DNA of 64,000 nt from Hyphomicrobiales bacterium (lineage in GTDB: Bacteria > Pseudomonadota > Alphaproteobacteria > Rhizobiales > NORP267): NCBI GenBank assembly GCA_021775875.1, contig JAJFHA010000009.1:1-64000 (forward strand). Reading direction: 5' to 3'. The position numbers were made by a program, and so were the translations under genes. Below the pieces are notes generated by a model. The model had not been told where the DNA came from and did not search any database. It saw nothing but the letters and a program-made list of their open reading frames with translations. Shown here piece by piece: positions 23,014-32,495 of this stretch. Position 1 is the stretch's first letter; every line of letters starts with the position of its first letter.

Positions 23014-23832
23014 ATGCCTATCGAGCAAATTCTGCTTCTGGCTATCATTCAGGGATTTACTGAATTTCTGCCGGTATCGTCTTCCGGTCACCTGATCCTG
23101 CTGCCGGTTTTTTCAGGCTGGCCGGATCAGGGCCTGGTGACAGATGTTATGGTACATCTTGGGTCGCTTGTCGCCGTCATCGTCTATTTCTGGCGCGATG
23201 TATTGCGCATTATTTCAGGCAGCTTTGGATTGCTGCGCGGGCAATGGACTGACAATTCCCGCCTCGCATTCTATATCGGGATTGGCACCCTACCGGCGAT
23301 CGCGTTTGGGCTATTTCTTAAAGCCTTTGGCCTGATGAGCCTGTTCCGCAATGTCGAAATTGTCGCATGGAACGCAATTATTTTTGGTATCCTCATGTTG
23401 CTGGCTGACCGGTACGGACGGCGCGACAAAGAGATACAGAATATGGGCATCAAGCAGGCAATCGCCATTGGCGTGGCGCAGGCTCTGGCGATTATTCCAG
23501 GCACGAGCCGCTCCGGTATCACCATGACGGTTGCACGGTCGTTAGGGTTCAGGCGTGCCGAAGCAGCCCGATTTTCATTCCTGCTTGGAATTCCGGCAAT
23601 TGCCGCTGCTGGTGGCCTGACCATGTTTGAACTGGTTGAAACCGGTCAGAGCATACCGATGGACGGGATATACGCCGCAACGCTGACATTCATCTCAGCG
23701 CTGATAGCGATTGCGTTCCTGATGCGGCTTGTCAGCAAAATCGGCCTGTTGCCGTTTGCACTTTACCGCTTTGGGCTGGCTGCCGTCCTGTTTGCCTTCA
23801 TATATGGCTGGCTGCCGGGCCTTTCTGCCTAG
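23014..23832 (+). CDS. uppP: undecaprenyl-diphosphate phosphatase UppP (BacA)
   Basis: UppP recycles the C55 lipid carrier by removing a phosphate from undecaprenyl diphosphate at the periplasmic face, giving low-level bacitracin resistance. The 272-residue multi-spanning protein carries both signature motifs: GFTEFLPVSSSGHLILLP near 11-28 and PGTSRSGITMTVARSLG near 162-178. It overlaps the convergent NDUFA9-like gene by 4 bases. Confidence 0.97.
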   Translation: MPIEQILLLAIIQGFTEFLPVSSSGHLILLPVFSGWPDQGLVTDVMVHLGSLVAVIVYFWRDVLRIISGSFGLLRGQWTDNSRLAFYIGIGTLPAIAFGLFLKAFGLMSLFRNVEIVAWNAIIFGILMLLADRYGRRDKEIQNMGIKQAIAIGVAQALAIIPGTSRSGITMTVARSLGFRRAEAARFSFLLGIPAIAAAGGLTMFELVETGQSIPMDGIYAATLTFISALIAIAFLMRLVSKIGLLPFALYRFGLAAVLFAFIYGWLPGLSA

Positions 23833-24779
23833 CGAACAAATTGCTCAAACTGGCCGGTACGGCGAAACCGTTCCAGATAGGTTGGCAGGATCAGAGCCAT
23901 AGTCACTGGTGAAATGCCAAGACCATCGAACGTACGGCCTTCACCGATCGCTGTGTCCGACACGACATTATCGTGGCCAAGCATCTTCACCTGATCAACA
24001 GTCAATAACGGGTTTGGCAGCATTTGCAAAAACATCGCCTGGACGCGGGCCAAGGCGGCAGGAACCGGTACCAGAATTCGGTTGCGCCCGGTCACCGCAA
24101 TCGCTTGCTCGACCATATCGTGCATGGTGACAATTTCCGGTCCGCCAAGTTCATAAATGCCTTTGCCATCTTCAAGCGTCCGCACCATTGCTTCGGCAAC
24201 ATCGCCGACAAATACCGGCTGGAATTTTGTTCCAGAGCCAACCACCGGAAATATTGGCGTTATGCGCGCAAGACCCGCGATAGTATTGAACAAATTATCC
24301 CCGGGGCCATAAATCACCGACGGGCGCAAAATGACAGCGTCCGGATAAGCAGCCAGGACACCCGCTTCGCCGGCTGCTTTGGAGCGGGCATAATGGGCAT
24401 CTGATTTGGGATCGGCACCTATTGAAGACATATGCACAATGCGCGATATTCCTGCGGCCTCAGACGCTCTTGCAACGGCTCGCGCACCGAAATCATGGAT
24501 GATATCAAAACGCTGCTGGCCTGACTGGAATAGAATACCAACCAGATTGATAACGCCCCAGGCACCTTTGACGGCAGCGTCGATGCTGGCCCGGTTGCGC
24601 AAATTGGCCTGAATCATCTTGATCTGGCCGACACCGCCGAGTGGCTGCAAATGTCCAGCAAGGTCTGGACGGCGCACGGCCACCCGGATGCGATATCCCT
24701 GTCGCGCCAGCCTGGCCACGACCTGACGACCGACAAATCCCGAACCACCGAAAACCGTTATCAGCTTGTCGCTGCTCAT
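23829..24779 (-). CDS. NDUFA9-like complex I-associated NAD(P)H-binding protein
   Basis: The 316-residue protein is an atypical SDR: Rossmann motif VFGGSGFVGRQVVARLA near 9-25, VHMSSIGADPKSDAHYARSK near 110-129 and ILRPSVIYGPGDNLFNTIA near 145-163. This is the pattern of the mitochondrial complex I subunit NDUFA9 and its alphaproteobacterial relatives, which bind NADPH. The ATG at 24779 was chosen because the Rossmann motif follows within ten residues; the frame is open to 24806. It lies 196 bases before tRNA-Leu. Confidence 0.88.
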   Translation of the reverse strand: MSSDKLITVFGGSGFVGRQVVARLARQGYRIRVAVRRPDLAGHLQPLGGVGQIKMIQANLRNRASIDAAVKGAWGVINLVGILFQSGQQRFDIIHDFGARAVARASEAAGISRIVHMSSIGADPKSDAHYARSKAAGEAGVLAAYPDAVILRPSVIYGPGDNLFNTIAGLARITPIFPVVGSGTKFQPVFVGDVAEAMVRTLEDGKGIYELGGPEIVTMHDMVEQAIAVTGRNRILVPVPAALARVQAMFLQMLPNPLLTVDQVKMLGHDNVVSDTAIGEGRTFDGLGISPVTMALILPTYLERFRRTGQFEQFVR

Positions 24780-24975
24780 TGAGAGACCCTTCCTCGTGAA
24801 ATTCAAATCGCAAAGCCCGACCTGACCTTACTGGAAATATCCGGTTCGAATCATCCTGTACAGGTATCTAACCGCATGATCCCTTCATTTTACAGCAATT
24901 CTGCAAAGATTTGCTGGTTCAGAGACCATATCCGCGTTGACATTGGAGATTAAGCTACTTATCCATCGCATTTAT

Positions 24976-25062
24976 GCCCAGGTGGCGGAATTGGTAGACG
25001 CGCTGCGTTCAGGTCGCAGTGGCCGCAAGGCCGTGGAAGTTCGAGTCTTCTCCTGGGCACCA
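24976..25062 (+). tRNA. tRNA-Leu (anticodon CAG), island integration site
   Basis: The sequence GCCCAGGTGGCGGAATTGG opens the acceptor and D-arm. The anticodon stem-loop CTGCGTTCAGGTCGCAG carries CAG, a long variable arm follows (TGGCCGCAAGGCCGT), then T-arm and acceptor strand CCTGGGC, discriminator A and encoded CCA at 25060-25062. Bases 25040-25063 are repeated at 32472-32495, so this gene is the attachment site of the island that follows. Confidence 0.95.
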
Positions 25063-25063
25063 T
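25040..25063 (+). repeat. att direct repeat, left copy (3' end of tRNA-Leu)
   Basis: These 24 bases, from the T-arm to the CCA of tRNA-Leu, are repeated in the same orientation at 32472-32495 with one mismatch (C at 25052, T at 32484). This is the layout left by a tyrosine recombinase that integrates into a tRNA 3' end and restores it. Confidence 0.85.
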
Positions 25064-25143
25064 AATTTCCTGGAAACTCCAGTAAACCCTTATTTTTGGG
25101 GTTTACTCTTGTGTTGTGTGTCTAATTTGAGCCTAACCTCACC

Positions 25144-25542
25144 ATGGATGGGCGAAGGCAGACAGCACAAGATAACGACAGATATCTGAAGCAACCAAAG
25201 GGCCGCAGGGCCTGGATGTACCAACGCGGTGTCCCTGAACGCTTTAAGGGCGCTGATTCTCGCTATAAAACGATCACAAAATCCACAGGTAAGCGCGATA
25301 TTCACGAGGCCCGGCAGGTGCGGGACCGGTTCGAAGAAGCTGACAATCAATATTGGGCTGCCCTGGATGCCGGCCTATCCGCTGAGACCGCGCAAGAAAA
25401 GTATGACGTCGCAATCGCCATGCGTGAGGCAATGGCACGGCCTGGCTGGTTGGTGAGGCCTATTGGCGATGGTTTGTCACTGGAACGCCTCCACGAAGCT
25501 CTCAACGACATGGCGCTGACGTCTGATCCAGAGGTGGCATGA
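25144..25542 (+). pseudogene. tyrosine integrase, N-terminal fragment (DUF6538-type start)
   Basis: The 132-residue frame has the N-terminal form of tRNA-associated tyrosine integrases: RYLKQPKGRRAWMYQRGVPE near 13-32, then KTITKSTGKRDIHEARQVRD and a helical arm. The SAM-like core-binding and catalytic domains (Arg...His-X-X-Arg...Tyr) are missing, since the frame stops at 25542 and the following DNA does not continue them. Its place 80 bases from the tRNA 3' end fits the integrase of the island, now truncated. Confidence 0.75.
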
Positions 25543-25636
25543 AAAGGCTATCGGGCTACGGGCAACGGCTGTCAGGAGGTGGAATACAAGCCATTGTATG
25601 TTTGTTAAATTCTTCGCGATCAACAAAGACAGCTAA

Positions 25637-26407
25637 TTAAAAATCAGCTTTTTGGGAGAGATTATCAGGGGTCTTCAACTTGATTCTTTGGACTTTTGCT
25701 CGAAATGTATTGCCGGATTTTACTTTGGAAACAGCAGTCAAAAATTCTGAAATTTGTCGATTTTTTGCGAACAAAAGGCGCGTATTGTCAATATATGTTT
25801 GTTGCAATAAGTACGTATTCAACTCAGCGCAAAGCTGAATGGAAATATTTTCTTGATCAGCTAACATTTTTTTCGTTTGCTCGATAACGGACTTCGTCAA
25901 AACGTGAATGTCGTGATTATCTGTCAGATCAGCTGCCGAGAAATTCCGACCCTTACTAGTCGAAATCGCTTGGTATAAATCATAATATTCGGTAAATACG
26001 TCGGTCCTCACCCTGCTTTGTATTCTGTCCGCGGCAAAGTCTGAGAAAATTGATCCCCATTTTCCACAAGCTATCTTATGCTGTTGAGGGAAAACTGTCG
26101 GTAGTAAGTCAGAAATATATGCCTTTATTAAAAATTTAAAAATTACAGTTTTGTCGAAAAGCCCAATATTTTTCCGATCATAAGACTTCATGCAAAAATT
26201 ATGAACATCTGTGGCGGCATCGAAGGCGACGTTTTTGGAATTGGCGAATGCATGCCTCAACTCTTCAATTTGAAGTCTGTTTATAATTCCATTGTGTTTG
26301 TCAGCTTCCTTTATTATTGCTTCAAACACCCAATCACGCGCACGCTTCCCCGCAGCAAAGCAATGATGAGGTCCAGGAACCGGGCTTATCTTATCTAGTT
26401 GGGTCAT
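25637..26407 (-). CDS. unknown 256-residue protein, last gene of the island sensory operon
   Basis: I do not recognise this protein. It is soluble-looking and largely helical by composition, with GPHHCFAAGKRARDWVFEAI near 12-31, IINRLQIEELRHAF near 40-53, CGKWGSIFSDFAADRIQSRV near 113-132 and a basic C-terminus (AKVQRIKLKTPDNLSQ). There is no signal peptide, membrane segment or known catalytic motif. The ATG at 26407 overlaps the stop of the gene before it (ATGA), so it is very likely co-translated with the small Cys-rich protein and co-transcribed with the chemoreceptor. AT-rich codon use fits foreign origin. Confidence 0.65.
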   Translation of the reverse strand: MTQLDKISPVPGPHHCFAAGKRARDWVFEAIIKEADKHNGIINRLQIEELRHAFANSKNVAFDAATDVHNFCMKSYDRKNIGLFDKTVIFKFLIKAYISDLLPTVFPQQHKIACGKWGSIFSDFAADRIQSRVRTDVFTEYYDLYQAISTSKGRNFSAADLTDNHDIHVLTKSVIEQTKKMLADQENISIQLCAELNTYLLQQTYIDNTRLLFAKNRQISEFLTAVSKVKSGNTFRAKVQRIKLKTPDNLSQKADF

Positions 26408-26703
26408 TTTTTACTGCGAACATTAAGTTCACTCCACTCGGTATTGGCATCTTCATCACCTATAAGGCATTCGAGATAGCATTTATCACCGGTCACGCAT
26501 AAGAGCACATCTTTGATTTTCTTACAGGTTTGCGGACACCATGCAGGAAGCAAGTCAGCAGTTTCAGCAGCTTTCATCACTTTTGGAGTTTCCAAATCCT
26601 CGGAATTCTGCTGCGAAGAATGGTTAGGACTAACCGGCCGTTGGTTTTCAGTCACAAAAGACGTATTTGACCTTGTTCGCGGTTTGTCTTCGATTGTCGC
26701 CAT
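26404..26703 (-). CDS. small Cys-rich protein of the sensory operon, unknown
   Basis: The 99-residue protein has a polar, disordered-looking N-terminal half rich in Ser, Asn and Pro, and a C-terminal part with five cysteines in about 25 residues: LPAWCPQTCKKIKDVLLCV, then DKCYLECLIGDED. This could bind metal or form disulfides, but there is no export signal, so a cytoplasmic metal or Fe-S site is more likely. The start at 26703 has AAGGAAAC 3 bases before the ATG; the frame is open to a TTG at 26742. It lies 35 bases behind the chemoreceptor gene and overlaps the next gene by 4 bases. I know of no named family. Confidence 0.6.
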   Translation of the reverse strand: MATIEDKPRTRSNTSFVTENQRPVSPNHSSQQNSEDLETPKVMKAAETADLLPAWCPQTCKKIKDVLLCVTGDKCYLECLIGDEDANTEWSELNVRSKK

Positions 26704-26738
26704 CTTGTTTCCTTGAGATACCTGCGGGTTTGTGCCGA

Positions 26739-27899
26739 TCAACCGACTTTTCTGATTTCCTCAATAAACTGGTCCATATCCTTGCGTAGGTCTTGCAATA
26801 CGGTTTCCTGTTTGGAGAGAACCCCGGATGCATCCTGAACTTTTGTCGAGGCGTCCTCGGTTTCGGCGGTCGCATCACGAACAAGAATAATGCTGGAACT
26901 CACGTCTGTGGTGCCAGTCGCCGCTTCTTCCACATTACGTGCAATCTCCTGAGTAGCTGCACTCTGTTCCTCCACGGCGCTCGCGATACTCGTGGAAATC
27001 TCATTCACCAGTGCAATTGTTTCGCTAATTTCCTTGTTAGCTTCCACGGCTTGCTTGGTGGCAACCTGAATGCTCTCAATCTGGATTCCGGTATCTTCGG
27101 TCGCTTTCGCCGTCTGGTCGGCCAGGCTTTTCACTTCCTGGGCAACCACCGCAAAGCCCTTGCCGGCCTCTCCTGCGCGCGCCGCTTCAATCGTAGCGTT
27201 TAGCGCCAGCAGGTTGGTCTGAGCAGCAATATCATTTATGAGATTTATGACATCGCCAATTTTTTGCGACTCTTCGGTCAAGCTCTCAATTTGGATGCTC
27301 ATTTTCTCGGATTTATCAACGGCAACCGCTGTAATTTCAGCAGACTGCACAACCTGACGATTGATTTCCTCAATCGAGGATGTGAGCTCTTCCGTTGCTC
27401 CCGCCACACCTTGCATGTTCACGGAAGCCTCTTCCGCACCGGCCGCTACAGTCAACGATTGTTCGTTCGCTGTACTGGACGATTTTCTGACCACATCGGA
27501 AACTGTCTTAAGATCGTTAATTGAGGAGGAAACAGACTCAACCACTTTCGCCATTTTTTCCTCAACTTGGCCCGCTGTTTTTTCGAATTCTTCGTTTCGG
27601 CCCATAAGGTAATAGGTTGATTTGTTGATGGCCTGAGCGGATTCAAGAAATGATCCAACCATACCCTTCTCTGAAATAAGTCTAAAATATTGGTTCCGCC
27701 CAATATAATCGAGGCAAGCCTTGGCTTCGCGCATAAAAGCATCAGACCGATCAATCAGTAAATTGATTGAATGCATCAATTCACCCATTTCACCCTTCTC
27801 GGTGATGTCCAAAATACGTGCTTCAAAATCGCCGGCTGCGACCGCTTCGCAAACTTCACGAGCTTTTGTAATTGCCTTGCTTGTTTTAGTTTTAATCAT
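26739..27899 (-). CDS. soluble methyl-accepting chemotaxis protein
   Basis: The 386-residue protein has no membrane segment. Residues 1-55 look like a HAMP-type module ([20 protein letters not shown], then [18 protein letters not shown]). The cytoplasmic signalling domain follows, with the hairpin tip [20 protein letters not shown] and [20 protein letters not shown] near 216-255. This tip binds CheA and CheW. There is no own sensor domain and no C-terminal CheR-docking pentapeptide. The PAS protein encoded 72 bases upstream has exactly the missing Aer-type sensor, so the pair looks like a split aerotaxis receptor. Two further genes follow in the same direction. Confidence 0.9.
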
Positions 27900-27971
27900 T
27901 GGAATACGCCTTTTGCAGGAATCTGCTGTACAATATTTTCTAAGTGGGGAATGGTTTAAGCCAATAAACCT

Positions 27972-28523
27972 CTATCTGACACCGCGACGCCGCCCCTGCC
28001 CAAGGGTCATGACAAATTCGTCATAAGCCAAGCTCTTTTCGGCCAGATGCGCCGCGACCATAGAAGTTGAATCCTCCAAGCCCTGCTTGCGGTTTCCTTG
28101 CTTCTGCTCAACCGCGAGTAGTGCTTTGTAGAGAGGAATGATGGTCTCATCGATGACCTTGCGGTCAGGAACCCGGCGGTTTGAATGGTATCCGATGATC
28201 TGTCCGCTGGTATCTCGGCTTGGTGTAACATGGGCATAGACCCAGTAATGATCTCCGTTTTTGGTACGGTTGACCACATAAGCAAATATTTCGCTGCCCA
28301 GTTGGAGCGTATCCCATAGCAGCTTGAAAATACACCGCGGCATATCGGGGTGACGGATCAAGCTGTGCGGCTCGCCGATTACTTCTTTCTCGCTATAGCC
28401 CGCGATACTCAGAAACACTCTGTTGATATAGGTCATGCGACCCTTCAGGTCGGTTTTGGAGACAATGATTTCATCGTCGCCAAAGAACACTTCCTTACCC
28501 GTAGTAAAAATATCTTTAGACAT
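27972..28523 (-). CDS. Aer-type PAS sensor protein
   Basis: The 183-residue product is mostly one PAS domain like that of the aerotaxis receptor Aer: DDEIIVSKTDLKGRMTYINR near 16-35, GYSEKEVIGEPHSLIRHPDM near 42-61, NRTKNGDHYWVYAHVTPSRD near 85-104, then PLYKALLAVEQKQ. In Aer this domain binds FAD and reads redox state. Here no membrane anchor, HAMP or signalling domain follows; those are in the separate chemoreceptor downstream. The ATG at 28523 was chosen because the frame before it (open to 28598) lacks PAS similarity. It is divergent from the MarR-type gene at 28837. Confidence 0.85.
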   Translation of the reverse strand: MSKDIFTTGKEVFFGDDEIIVSKTDLKGRMTYINRVFLSIAGYSEKEVIGEPHSLIRHPDMPRCIFKLLWDTLQLGSEIFAYVVNRTKNGDHYWVYAHVTPSRDTSGQIIGYHSNRRVPDRKVIDETIIPLYKALLAVEQKQGNRKQGLEDSTSMVAAHLAEKSLAYDEFVMTLGQGRRRGVR

Positions 28524-28600
28524 TACGATTTTACCACCTTGTTCAATCCAATCAACTGTCACCAACAAGCCTACCAGGGCAGTGCATTTGGTCATCAATC

Positions 28601-28691
28601 GGATTTGAAACGCGCGCTTCGAGGAAGTCTATTCAACTCAACTCAATTGTGGGCACAAAGAGAAACCAGATGAATTGCGCGTTTCAAATCC
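28601..28691. repeat. perfect 15-bp inverted repeat, 61 bp apart
   Basis: GGATTTGAAACGCGC at 28601-28615 is matched exactly, inverted, by GCGCGTTTCAAATCC at 28677-28691. The pair lies in the divergent promoter region between the PAS gene and the MarR-type gene. Two readings are possible: paired regulator sites or the ends of a 91-bp MITE-like insert. I saw no target duplication outside the repeats. Confidence 0.7.
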
Positions 28692-28756
28692 TAGATAATT
28701 TTACAAACACATCATTGTGATTGATTTAATGTTTAGTTTCGATGCTAAAGTATATC

Positions 28757-28805
28757 GAATCATCTAAGGTGCATGAAAGAATATTAGAATTATCTAAGGT
28801 GCATG
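28757..28805 (+). promoter_or_regulatory. two direct repeats upstream of the MarR-type gene
   Basis: GAATCATCTAAGGTGCATG at 28757-28775 recurs as GAATTATCTAAGGTGCATG at 28787-28805 (one difference). The 30-bp period is close to three DNA turns, so both copies face the same side of the helix. They sit 30-80 bases before the regulator's ATG and could be its operators. Confidence 0.55.
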
Positions 28806-28836
28806 TTTGATTGCCGTAGCAGAGGCTCTTAATAAT

Positions 28837-29445
28837 ATGGCTGCAGAAACCAAAACCGACCCCGCTTTTCTGGCTGAGATGATTTTGTATTTGTCACGAC
28901 TTGCATACACAAAAGGCCAAGTTCGCGGTTTGACCAATGCACAATGGACGGCTCTCGGATTCTTCGGGAGGGTAAACCAGTTATCACGCACACTCACCGA
29001 CTTCGCCAAATACCATTCCACGACACAAGGCAGCGCCTCGCAAACCGTCAAAAACCTTGTCAAAAAAGGTCTCCTTACGCGCACGCTATCCGCACACGAC
29101 AAGCGGAGTGCTCGTTACGATCTGACAGAAAAAGGCCGCAATTTATGTGACAGAGACCCGTTCGAAATTCTTACCAAAGCAATCGCAGTACAACCCGAAT
29201 TTCACCTGGATTACTTGAAAGTGATCCTTAAGGACATATTGGCCAGCATCGTTGCGGATCCACAAAAGCAATATTTCGGAACCTGTTCAACCTGCCAATT
29301 CCTCAAAATAGACAATGATCATGATGACGCTGCAATGGCCTATTTCTGTACTCGTTTAAAAGAAGGGCTGTCTGCTTCGGATATCCACGATATATGCATG
29401 AATCATCAACCAAAGATGTCCACTATAGATCACCTTGAGAACTGA
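28837..29445 (+). CDS. MarR-type winged-helix regulator with C-terminal four-Cys site
   Basis: The 202-residue protein has a MarR-like winged helix (GLTNAQWTALGFFGRVNQLS near 33-52; GSASQTVKNLVKKGLLTRTL near 67-86; DKRSARYDLTEKGRN for the wing). After it comes a C-terminal extension with CSTC (FGTCSTCQFLK near 149-159), one Cys near 175 and one near 189, the spacing of a Zn or Fe-S ligand set. This suggests a redox, oxygen or metal-responsive repressor, which is an inference. The ATG at 28837 is used; a TTG at 28807 is the alternative. It is divergent from the PAS/chemoreceptor operon and has a paralogue at 30342. Confidence 0.8.
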   Translation: MAAETKTDPAFLAEMILYLSRLAYTKGQVRGLTNAQWTALGFFGRVNQLSRTLTDFAKYHSTTQGSASQTVKNLVKKGLLTRTLSAHDKRSARYDLTEKGRNLCDRDPFEILTKAIAVQPEFHLDYLKVILKDILASIVADPQKQYFGTCSTCQFLKIDNDHDDAAMAYFCTRLKEGLSASDIHDICMNHQPKMSTIDHLEN

Positions 29446-29633
29446 TCCTCTCCCAATGAATTTGTCCATCCCATTGTTTAGGGTGTGGCCAAGTTCAACC
29501 AACACCCGTTTGCATAGAGCCGCAGCATCGACAGGAAACTGACGGCCTTTTTCGAACCGGATTGCCGGTCTTCGCAAATCCTTACCTTTCGCCAGTTTCC
29601 CTTTTTGTCCCAGCCGCGTTGTCCCAGCCGCCG

Positions 29634-30083
29634 CACAGTGACCTGGTCGGCAGATTAAAGGACAATTATATTGTCACTCTGGTCGAGCGCCATTCCCGGC
29701 ATGTAACGCTGGTCAAGGTTGCCAAAAAAGATATCGAAAGCGTTGTCGCAGCGTTGATCAAACCGTCTCAAAGGCTACCGCGTGAACTCTACCAATCCCT
29801 CACCTGGGATCGTGGCAAGGAACTGGCAGATCATCCACGTCTGACAATGGCAACGGATGTCGAGGTCTATTTTTGCACCCCACAATCACCTTGGCAACGC
29901 GGGTCAAACGAACACACCAACTGCCAGCTACGACAGTATCCGCCGAGGGGTCATGACCTGCCTGTGCATTCTCAAGCAAAACCGGGTGCGATTGCATGGT
30001 AACTGAATGAACGGTCTCGTAACACCTTGCAATATCAAACCCCAGCAGAGAGGTTTGCTGAGTGTGTTTCATTGATCAACTAA
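29634..30083 (+). pseudogene. IS30-family transposase, decayed C-terminal part
   Basis: The frame reads DNYIVTLVERHSRHVTLVKV, LTWDRGKELADHPRLTMATD, VYFCTPQSPWQRGSNEHTN and LNERSRNTLQYQTPAERF, all blocks of the IS30 DDE domain. The N-terminal half is missing, and a TAA at 30000-30002 stands where Gln is expected (CAA to TAA), so the gene is dead. It lies between the two MarR-type genes and may have brought about their separation. Confidence 0.85.
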
Positions 30084-30341
30084 GTCCACCGTTATTAGGA
30101 TATATATTTCATTTATAAAACAAAGCGGTACCATTTCAAATTCTGTATATATATGTAAAAATCTGGTTTTCTAAATTAAATTATAAATATAATTTTGATT
30201 TATCACGTTAACTATTTCGGTATAAATGATTTTTTATTTGATATAATTGTTTTCTGCATTTTTTCGAAAGTTTCGATGCGAAATGAATATATTAAGCTAA
30301 ATTGATCTAACTCATATACAGTCCGCAATTTTTATGGGTAC
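30084..30341. other. very AT-rich non-coding stretch before the second MarR-type gene
   Basis: About 250 bases with long A/T runs and no reading frame of note. This base composition stands out from the rest of the window and is typical of foreign DNA silenced by H-NS-like proteins such as MucR/Ros in alphaproteobacteria. It presumably contains the promoter of the gene at 30342. Confidence 0.5.
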
Positions 30342-30953
30342 ATGCCAACAATGGCATATGACACTGAAAAAAAAGCTGCTTTGGCCGCCGAAATGTTGCT
30401 TCATTTGGGGCGGCTGACTCACGGTGGATTTGTACGCGGAGATGGGCTTTCATACAGCCTTACGAGCGCTCAATGGACTGCTCTCGGGTACTTCGCACGA
30501 GCAAACATAATCTCACGTACACTTTCGGCATTCGCTAAATTTCACGCAACAACCCGCGGCACAGCATCCCAGACCATCAAGAGCCTCACCAACAAAGGAT
30601 ACCTTAAACGCACTCGCTCGCGTCTCGACGCTCGCAGCTACAACATTGAGCTCACAGCAAAGGGAAAGAAACTGATTAAAAAGGACCCTTTCGAGGACCT
30701 GGTGGAAGTGATTGCAGAGTTGCCTGAACAGCAACAGGCGATGATGGCAAAAATGCTGGATCATATGCTGGGGCGGATAACCGATGATCGAAACAGAGAA
30801 CAATTTGGGACTTGCTCCACCTGCAGGTTTCTGAAGGAGTCCTTCTATCCAAAAACCAGCAAGATTATATACAAATGCAGCCAAAGCGACATAGCATTGA
30901 ACCAATCGCAGTTTGGGAAACTTTGTGTGAGCTACAAAACGAACGGTAGATGA
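30342..30953 (+). CDS. second MarR-type regulator with C-terminal four-Cys site
   Basis: The 203-residue protein parallels the one at 28837: SLTSAQWTALGYFARANIIS near 44-63, RGTASQTIKSLTNKGYLKRT near 78-97, a conserved DPFEDL segment, and again FGTCSTCRFLKES followed by two single cysteines (YKC, KLC). The C-terminal cysteines are kept although the rest has diverged, which argues that they are functional ligands. The ATG at 30342 or 30351 can serve; neither has a strong ribosome-binding site. No target gene is adjacent, so it may cross-regulate the cassette at 26404-28523. Confidence 0.8.
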   Translation: MPTMAYDTEKKAALAAEMLLHLGRLTHGGFVRGDGLSYSLTSAQWTALGYFARANIISRTLSAFAKFHATTRGTASQTIKSLTNKGYLKRTRSRLDARSYNIELTAKGKKLIKKDPFEDLVEVIAELPEQQQAMMAKMLDHMLGRITDDRNREQFGTCSTCRFLKESFYPKTSKIIYKCSQSDIALNQSQFGKLCVSYKTNGR

Positions 30954-31041
30954 TATTGAGCATGCACGAACCGTGTTTTTTACCCTGGAATTGGCAAGCA
31001 GATTGATGCCGAAGCTGAAGCCGAATTATAGCGCTGCTGCT

Positions 31042-31239
31042 CTACTTTTCATCCAGATCATCTTCTTGCAAAAGACTTGTGGTTTCCAATACAACCGCTC
31101 GTAGCAGGTGGGAAAGAAACTCAAATTCTTGCTCGTCTGCAATATTTTGAAGTTTTTCGGCCGCTTTGCCTATAGTTAAAATTGATGCGAGGCGTTTATC
31201 TTCAGCGACGTCGTCTTCATCTAAATCAGAGTTATTCAA
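31042..31239 (-). CDS. possible small acidic protein, 65 residues
   Basis: The frame starts with TTG and reads NNSDLDEDDVAEDKRLASIL, then KAAEKLQNIADEQEFEFLSH and LLRAVVLETTSLLQ, which looks like a natural acidic helical protein. No ribosome-binding site is clear and there is no internal Met. I do not know a family. It may be a real small island gene or a remnant. Confidence 0.35.
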   Translation of the reverse strand: MNNSDLDEDDVAEDKRLASILTIGKAAEKLQNIADEQEFEFLSHLLRAVVLETTSLLQEDDLDEK

Positions 31240-31558
31240 TATCTAAATATCCCGATAATATGCAGCTGTTGTTTACTGCTGGACTGGTTCTGACCAAATT
31301 GCAATTTGGCCTAAATACACAAAAACTATACATTGACCTGTTTCCTGAAAATTAAACCATTTTAAACTGGAACTTTCCATTTCACCATCTCTGGTTAGGG
31401 AAAAAGAAAATTTCTTTAGGAAATCGAGATTTACTGACGCACGGAAAGCTTTCATTTTGAAGCAGGTTGATGAAGAAAGAACACCGATATCGGAGACCTG
31501 TCTGACTCGCCCACGAATCTTTCGTTATATAGGTGATAGATGTGCCCTATTATGTAGA

Positions 31559-31834
31559 TCACAGAAACGTGATGTCAAGTTTTGACCTGATCTCCTGAGA
31601 TTTCTCAATATTTTTGTACGTTGTGGACACAATTGCACCACTGTCTGATTGTGAAAATATGTAACATAGCGAGAATGTTTCTGCTGAGTTTTCCAAACGG
31701 GCTGCCAATCTTCGCATGTCCTTCATCTTGCAGAAAAGGCGCTCGACGATGTTGCGCATGGCGTAAAGATTTTTATCATGAAGTATCGGATTGAAAAGGG
31801 CGTCCTGTCCGGTTCCAGATGGAGCATTCCTCAA
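31559..31834 (-). pseudogene. IS5-family transposase, C-terminal remnant
   Basis: The frame contains LHDKNLYAMRNIVERLFCKM and KDMRRLAARLENSAETF, the end of an IS5-group DDE transposase (the conserved R-N-x-V-E-R-x-F-x-K-x-K-D block with the catalytic Glu). The catalytic Asp region and N-terminus are missing and the C-terminus is unrelated. The same family left the deletion derivative at 37873-38208, which reads NLYAQLNIVERFICKMKDMR. Confidence 0.75.
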
Positions 31835-32471
31835 TATTTTGAGTTTGCTTGACAGGACCGCTTGCTCCCCGGATCAATGGGAAAACCGGGACGCCCATTG
31901 ATGCATATAGAAGGGCGCACTAGGCCTTGCTGACCGGCAAGTTCAATTCGCCTTCCAATACAGCTTGCACTGGCGCTGGAGACCGCGTGGAGGACATTCA
32001 ATCCCGTCGGCACTTCATACGAGAAGGTTCTGTGAGGACCGGTTTAGCGACCAAGAAAAAGGTCAGTGAATTTTTATCTTGGGTAACACAAGTTTCAACG
32101 ATTACACCTGAAACGCGACAATAAATTGTGCCCGGATGCTGGTCACCAACTGCACTGGCCTTAAGAATTTCACCATAGATCAGGTATCGGTGAAATTGCT
32201 GGATTATGACTGCAGACTGGCTCACCATCGGTTGCGGAAACAAGTGGTGTTGTACTTCGTGATTACGTCGACTAAAAAGGTCAGCAATGCTGGCAGTTGG
32301 GTGTCATGTTCAAGTCCAGGACCGATATGGCCGTTTACGCTGTGTATCGGACAGGTATTGACCACAGGCAATAGTGTGTCTGATTCGTGTCTAAAATTGT
32401 TGATGTTCGCTAGGTGAGGCTTCTAAAATGCACCTTATAATTCAGATATATAAGGAGTTTATAAATTTTGA
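31835..32471. other. degenerate end of the island, no intact gene
   Basis: Several short frames exist on both strands but none resembles a known family or shows a ribosome-binding site with steady coding character. Given the flanking IS5 remnant and the att repeat, this is best seen as decayed mobile DNA. Confidence 0.45.
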
Positions 32472-32495
32472 TTCGAGTCTTCTTCTGGGCACCAT
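32472..32495 (+). repeat. att direct repeat, right copy
   Basis: Twenty-four bases matching the tRNA-Leu 3' end at 25040-25063 with one change (T for C at 32484). In the tRNA that change would turn G7-C66 into a G-U wobble, so either copy could complete a working acceptor stem. It marks the outer edge of the island. Confidence 0.85.

Follow-up and report, generated by a model that had tools for sequence, protein, structure and literature searches.

The bipartite receptor CetA/CetB of C. jejuni was characterised in 2008 and distributes the domains of Aer over two proteins, of which CetB is membrane-associated (PMC2628428). Four CetBA pairs were described in 2025 in M. gryphiswaldense, where FAD in CetB2, interaction of CetB2 with CetA2 and a response away from oxygen are reported; respiratory-chain components have been suggested as what CetB2 reads (PMC12442639). 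The published CetA proteins that were found described in these sources are membrane proteins (PMC2628428, PMC12442639). Bipartite receptors are presented as an established class in a review (PMC13401364), which cites a paper whose title names a new family of them (Elliott et al. 2009, J Bacteriol 191:375). Both described systems contradict the sequence-only reading of the locus analysed here, according to which known aerotaxis receptors always carry PAS and signalling domains in one chain. The 2009 study by Elliott and co-workers reportedly lists 55 HAMP/PAS pairs.

The window, i.e. the whole stretch of 64,000 nucleotides that was analysed, comes from a Hyphomicrobiales bacterium and contains four neighbouring genes on one strand:

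27972..28523, minus strand: PAS gene P0001, 183 aa; Pfam PAS_3/PAS_9, similar to the Aer PAS structure 8dik
26739..27899, minus strand: MCP gene P0002, 386 aa; HAMP and MCPsignal, no transmembrane hairpin (hydropathy, alignment and tree)
26404..26703, minus strand: P0003, 99 aa, five Cys, AAGGA ahead of the ATG; orphan by the searches made
25637..26407, minus strand: P0004, 256 aa, of an unnamed family (order-wide search and 14-row alignment)

The stop of the PAS gene is followed after 72 nt by the MCP gene, a 35-nt gap separates the MCP gene from P0003, and P0003 and P0004 overlap by ATGA. The sequence-only reading had proposed an Aer-type PAS protein without output beside a soluble sensorless MCP, and on this point Pfam, 8dik and hydropathy all agree with it; the small five-Cys frame and the overlapping 256-aa frame are also where it had put them, although the interval that it gave (26404-28523) excludes P0004. 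The coding signal per codon is clear for the PAS (0.175) and MCP (0.306) genes and weak for P0003 (0.075) and P0004 (0.049); for the latter, one reverse frame with 10 stops even scores slightly above the true frame. Homologues nevertheless establish P0004 as a gene. No terminator-like site was found on the minus strand from 28523 to 25637, in a scan whose count was near chance (7 vs 4.5 in shuffles). A terminator-free stretch across the four genes permits co-transcription and is no proof of shared function.

The PAS and MCP genes very probably encode a bipartite redox receptor (energy or oxygen taxis) of the CetB/CetA type that belongs to an anchorless, cytoplasmic class. It is a variant of a known bipartite kind, pairs of a PAS-only protein and a sensorless MCP being nothing new. 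The locus as a whole is most likely a mobile soluble CetBA-type receptor accompanied by unrelated cargo.

All five Pfam families that match P0001 at E up to 1 are PAS models (PAS_3 at 5.4e-13) and the protein lacks an output domain. Its nearest solved relative is the PAS domain of E. coli Aer (8dik, E 1.5e-29); 31cj is also matched (E 2.1e-27). The positions of FAD contacts were taken from the residues named in two publications, not from an aligned CetB2 sequence (PMC12442639, PMC2628428). R57, H58 and D60 of P0001 have the same letters as Aer in the alignment, and H53, F66, W70, N85 and R116 correspond to FAD contacts of CetB2 under a presumed offset of one. The FAD-contact residues are present in P0001 except at position 54, which is Ser where CetB2 has Asn. 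Their conservation was followed in the PAS proteins whose partner MCP is anchorless (31 rows) or membrane-bound (17 rows), two classes described below. H53, W70, N85, R116 and R117 are the same letter in every row of both, while F66 (30/31), R57 (30/31, the last being an unknown letter) and H58 (29/31) are kept in nearly all anchorless-partner rows and in all 17 membrane-partner rows. Most FAD-contact positions are thus kept whichever the class of the partner, and positions 54 and 60 vary: Ser54 occurs in 22 of the 31 and 14 of the 17 rows, and D60, reported to be needed in Aer, in only 17 of the 31 and 14 of the 17. P0001 additionally carries Gly28, Ile65 and Val99. At the equivalent places of Aer, suppressors to G, V and V are reported to restore FAD binding despite HAMP defects, and the same three letters, G, V and V, are present in CetB (PMC2628428). 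P0001 is predicted to be a CetB-type stand-alone PAS protein that binds FAD.

In P0002, only HAMP and MCPsignal score above cut-off, and a sensor domain is missing. The largest 19-residue Kyte-Doolittle mean is 1.08 and no segment exceeds 1.6, i.e. the membrane hairpin that is a trait of characterised CetA proteins is missing. For this reason P0002 is filed as an anchorless CetBA-like variant and not as a CetA orthologue. The same division runs through the 48 MCP partners of PAS homologues, 31 of which (window included) are anchorless and 17 membrane proteins. Their hydropathy maxima fall into two groups with a gap between 1.37 and 1.87, and the class cut, a value of 1.6 within the first 250 residues, was chosen once this gap was visible; it is not specific, one named MCP passing it within the signalling region too. 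Gene starts in the other genomes were set mechanically, L069 and L094 of the anchorless class are partial MCP frames, its row L114 is divergent, and L112 was paired with its MCP only at the later stage of the PAS tree, after the first hydropathy survey. In the tree of the 48 MCP rows, in which several long branches and rows of unusual composition were flagged, a single branch parts anchorless from membrane proteins with support 100/99. The classes are not single clades in the PAS tree, where S needs 5 changes. A seven-row alignment places the HAMP and signalling parts in both classes, the N-terminal hairpin being missing from the anchorless rows. Four named alphaproteobacterial plasmid pairs all fall into the membrane class by the 1.6 cut, with two N-terminal peaks in Methylovirgula and Azospirillum thermophilum and one in Methylocystis and Azospirillum argentinense. 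No anchorless pair was found in a named genome. Likewise, no anchorless CetA was found in the literature searched by titles and abstract openings, a scope outside which lie Elliott et al. 2009 and the supplement of PMC12442639; the literature search also returned no paper on a bipartite PAS/MCP receptor on a genomic island. As a class defined from sequences, the putative anchorless receptors are the feature of most interest here. Since CetA of C. jejuni and CetA2 are membrane-linked and P0002 is anchorless, P0002 may sense something else or sit elsewhere.

The adjacency of the two genes is conserved well beyond the window. PAS homologues (E <= 1e-25) occupy 57 places, spread over 37 of 101 genomes with the own genome among them, and at 48 of these places, again with the window, a same-strand MCP frame of more than 200 aa lies directly downstream (partial at L069 and L094). 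The remaining nine lack a full MCP of their own in this position. Three of them (L078, L098, L100) are extra PAS genes within an MCP cluster, arranged PAS-PAS-MCP in G011 and G097 (L098, L100) and PAS-MCP-PAS in G082 (L078); such clusters are candidates for two sensors serving one receptor. At L071 the PAS gene adjoins only a 64-aa MCP end. The other five (L092, L095, L116, L118, L119) encode CetB-like PAS proteins without an adjacent MCP relative and resemble the partnerless CetB5 of M. gryphiswaldense (PMC12442639). These nine places suggest that PAS proteins of this type may also function by themselves. No further gene accompanies the majority of PAS-MCP pairs: the biggest extra cluster, an ABC ATPase, covers 7 loci, and the others comprise sets of 7 and 6 loci read as spurious frames, then of 4 or 3, in a clustering where the dropping of overlapping frames left the PAS and MCP clusters themselves at 39 loci each.

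The genome of the window carries a second PAS-MCP pair on contig C3, 66% and 53% identical to the island pair. Its gene context, four neighbour families, is common to the genus-mates G001 and G002, which suggests that it is the resident copy. In both trees, the island pair has its closest relative in a different family, in G097, with 77% identity for both proteins.

The sequence-only reading had also placed the genes on a genomic island, and this is borne out by a repeated tRNA-Leu end and by empty sites in G001 and G002:

24976..25062, plus strand: tRNA-Leu(CAG), attachment site (ARAGORN); its 3' end, 25040-25062, is the left repeat
25063..32494, strand not applicable: genomic island, ~7.4 kb; empty sites in G001 and G002, GC below the flanks
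25144..25542, plus strand: tyrosine integrase N-terminal remnant, resembling the start of 467-501-aa frames in G010 and G019
28807..29445, plus strand: MarR-family regulator (MarR_2, ~1e-12), divergent from the PAS gene
29562..30002, plus strand: IS30 transposase fragment (NF033563, 8.1e-36, positions 142-252 of 267)
30342..30953, plus strand: second MarR-family regulator, 45% identical to the first
32472..32494, plus strand: right copy of the tRNA-Leu 3' end, 22/23 identical to the left repeat

The 23-bp tRNA-Leu end has two matches in the window, differing at one position, vs a mean of 0.00 in 100 shuffles. In G002, one continuous stretch matches both flanks, the left one (window 23824-25063) at 85% identity and the right one (from 32472) at 87%, and the two matches overlap within the 23 bp. 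G001 has the same empty site at lower identity, so that the site is empty in both genus-mates examined; G003, a more distant genome, has both the tRNA and the rnd gene, but ~4.5 kb apart. Bounded by the repeat copies and the empty-site flanks, the island (25063-32494) is real, exactly delimited and inserted at tRNA-Leu. It is also small and decayed, its mobility genes being remnants. Instead of an intact integrase, only a 132-aa N-terminal piece adjoins the tRNA. This piece has no Pfam match of its own and no tblastn match in plasmids or phages; the G010 product, the sole integrase-like one tested, has DUF6538 above cut-off and Phage_integrase below it (E 2.3e-4). A weak DDE transposase scrap on the island also stays below cut-off. 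Another scrap of the integrase N-terminus, 64% identical, lies elsewhere in the genome (G000:C25:75336-75485).

Other observations concern the MarR genes. The divergent gap between the PAS and first MarR genes (28601-28691 and 28757-28805) holds an inverted repeat of 20 nt (90%) with 51 nt between its arms and two direct repeats of 19 nt at a distance of 30 nt, which are possible operators. Both island MarR proteins (28807-29445, 30342-30953) have an FGTCSTC stretch near the C-terminus, and a third relative at C3:409285-409815 is 29% identical over a match that spans one stop. Neither MarR protein has a match (E <= 1e-5) at the other PAS loci.

The receptor pair might itself be a decaying passenger without present function. 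The fragmentary integrase and transposases would fit, as would the paralogous pair elsewhere in the genome and the PAS gene left beside a mere 64-aa MCP end at L071. The PAS and MCP genes are nevertheless full length with a good coding signal, and the FAD-contact residues are kept, which makes this explanation improbable.

The sequence-only reading saw P0003 and P0004 as possible adaptors or outputs of the receptor, within one four-gene operon. The common strand, the 35-nt gap, the ATGA overlap, the location of all four genes on the island and the near-chance terminator scan are in keeping with such an operon, but the distribution of the genes argues against it. At the 53 loci containing the 56 remaining PAS places, a few of which (L069, L085, L094, L114) are on contigs ending at or near the MCP gene, neither P0003 nor P0004 is matched (E <= 1e-5), and the full set was found at none of the 56. 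Nor does it occur at any of the 14 other P0004-family loci, where neither a PAS homologue nor a paired MCP is present within the stretches examined. An absence of the set from other loci had been named in the sequence-only reading as a refutation, and it holds as far as these stretches reach. Neither gene lies within 14 kb of the C3 pair, and the GC content of P0004 (0.39) is below that of the PAS (0.51) and MCP (0.48) genes. The proposed role of the two proteins as adaptors or outputs is thus not supported and we regard the four-gene operon as unlikely. Most likely, the two genes are cargo that shares the strand of the receptor genes without being related to them.

As the earlier reading had it, the two proteins belong to no known family, with no Pfam or NCBIfam hit at E up to 1. 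PHROGs gave none for P0003 and two matches for P0004 at E 0.19; PADLOC gave none for P0004. Kinship of P0003 to DpdJ was not accepted, the PADLOC matches being weak (E 0.0068 and 0.015, 40 residues). Only four marginal matches to P0003 beside itself were found in 101 genomes (best E 0.0149), and by these searches it is an orphan. In the order sample of 297 genomes, 18, the own genome among them, have P0004 or a homologue. A profile search of 398 genomes drawn from the phylum matched the own genome only; it scores only some first-look candidates per genome, and all 20 of the non-matching genomes that were listed belong to the same order. Fourteen aligned rows have M1, G12, C16, C72, W117 and Y145 in common, and H14 and N197 nearly so: the family displays an invariant G-x-x-x-C near its start, then invariant Cys, Trp and Tyr, and is sporadic in the order. 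Judged from its homologues, P0004 is a sporadic stand-alone family. Neighbourhoods were examined for the window and 14 others of the 18 genomes, leaving out G172, G203 and G253; at L032 the contig ends close to the homologue, which hides the neighbours on that side. A 711-aa MCP is situated ~4 kb from the homologue at L021. The G002 homologue (55% identical) is situated ~420 nt past a tRNA-Thr, a hint that P0004 may have a mobility of its own. No clear P0003 counterpart was found upstream of 13 P0004 homologues, and the small frames with 4-6 Cys seen there are read as chance frames. Neither protein has a match in plasmids or a confirmed match in viral contigs. An AlphaFold2 model of P0004 with one homologue was unusable (mean pLDDT 38.7).

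The PAS-MCP pair would operate as follows. P0001, judged by its residues, would hold FAD and bind a soluble P0002 dimer at its HAMP and proximal signalling region, and the docked pair would alter CheA activity via a CheW-linked receptor array. FAD binding, complex formation and placement in the cytoplasm are inferred, as are the nature of the stimulus and the sign of the response. The genome encodes a CheW and a 1002-aa frame with CheW-domain matches that is read as CheA. A soluble MCP serving mainly a non-motility pathway, with a PAS domain sensing a cofactor other than FAD, would be compatible with the missing membrane anchor, yet P0001 keeps Aer-like FAD contacts and all four CheW-domain matches of the genome fall within a 2-kb stretch of a single contig, so that a second CheA-CheW system is not seen; we give this pathway little credence and retain a CetB/CetA-type receptor. 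A broader proposal, tentative and possible rather than probable, is that the anchorless pairs form a monophyletic cytoplasmic CetBA class, widespread across the order and spreading on tRNA islands, whose PAS protein reports the redox state of the cytoplasm, not the membrane respiratory chain. Aer and CetA are membrane-anchored, and an anchorless class with the same PAS and signalling parts would directly test whether placement matters. The window copy shows that a tRNA island can harbour a receptor of this kind in the form of a second, diverged copy, in addition to the resident one.

Compared with the described systems, the pair shares with CetA/CetB of C. jejuni adjacent genes, a PAS-only CetB and a CetA made of HAMP and signalling parts without a sensor, but C. 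jejuni CetA has a two-helix membrane hairpin and P0002 has none (PMC2628428). The gene order also differs from the sole Campylobacterota pair seen, in Aliarcobacter, where the MCP gene comes first, whereas the PAS gene is first in the window. Similarly to CetBA2 of M. gryphiswaldense, a PAS protein and an MCP come from one gene pair, and the closest solved structure of both CetB2 and P0001 is Aer PAS 8dik; CetA2 is, however, linked to the inner membrane and the CetBA2 genes overlap, while the window MCP is anchorless and the genes are 72 nt apart (PMC12442639). AerC-type soluble receptors are likewise cytoplasmic, PAS-based redox receptors, although AerC has two PAS domains of its own and the window a single PAS as a separate protein (PMC13401364). 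Finally, E. coli Aer (8dik) resembles P0001 in PAS sequence and FAD-contact residues, but it is one chain with a membrane anchor, in contrast with the two anchorless proteins of the window pair.
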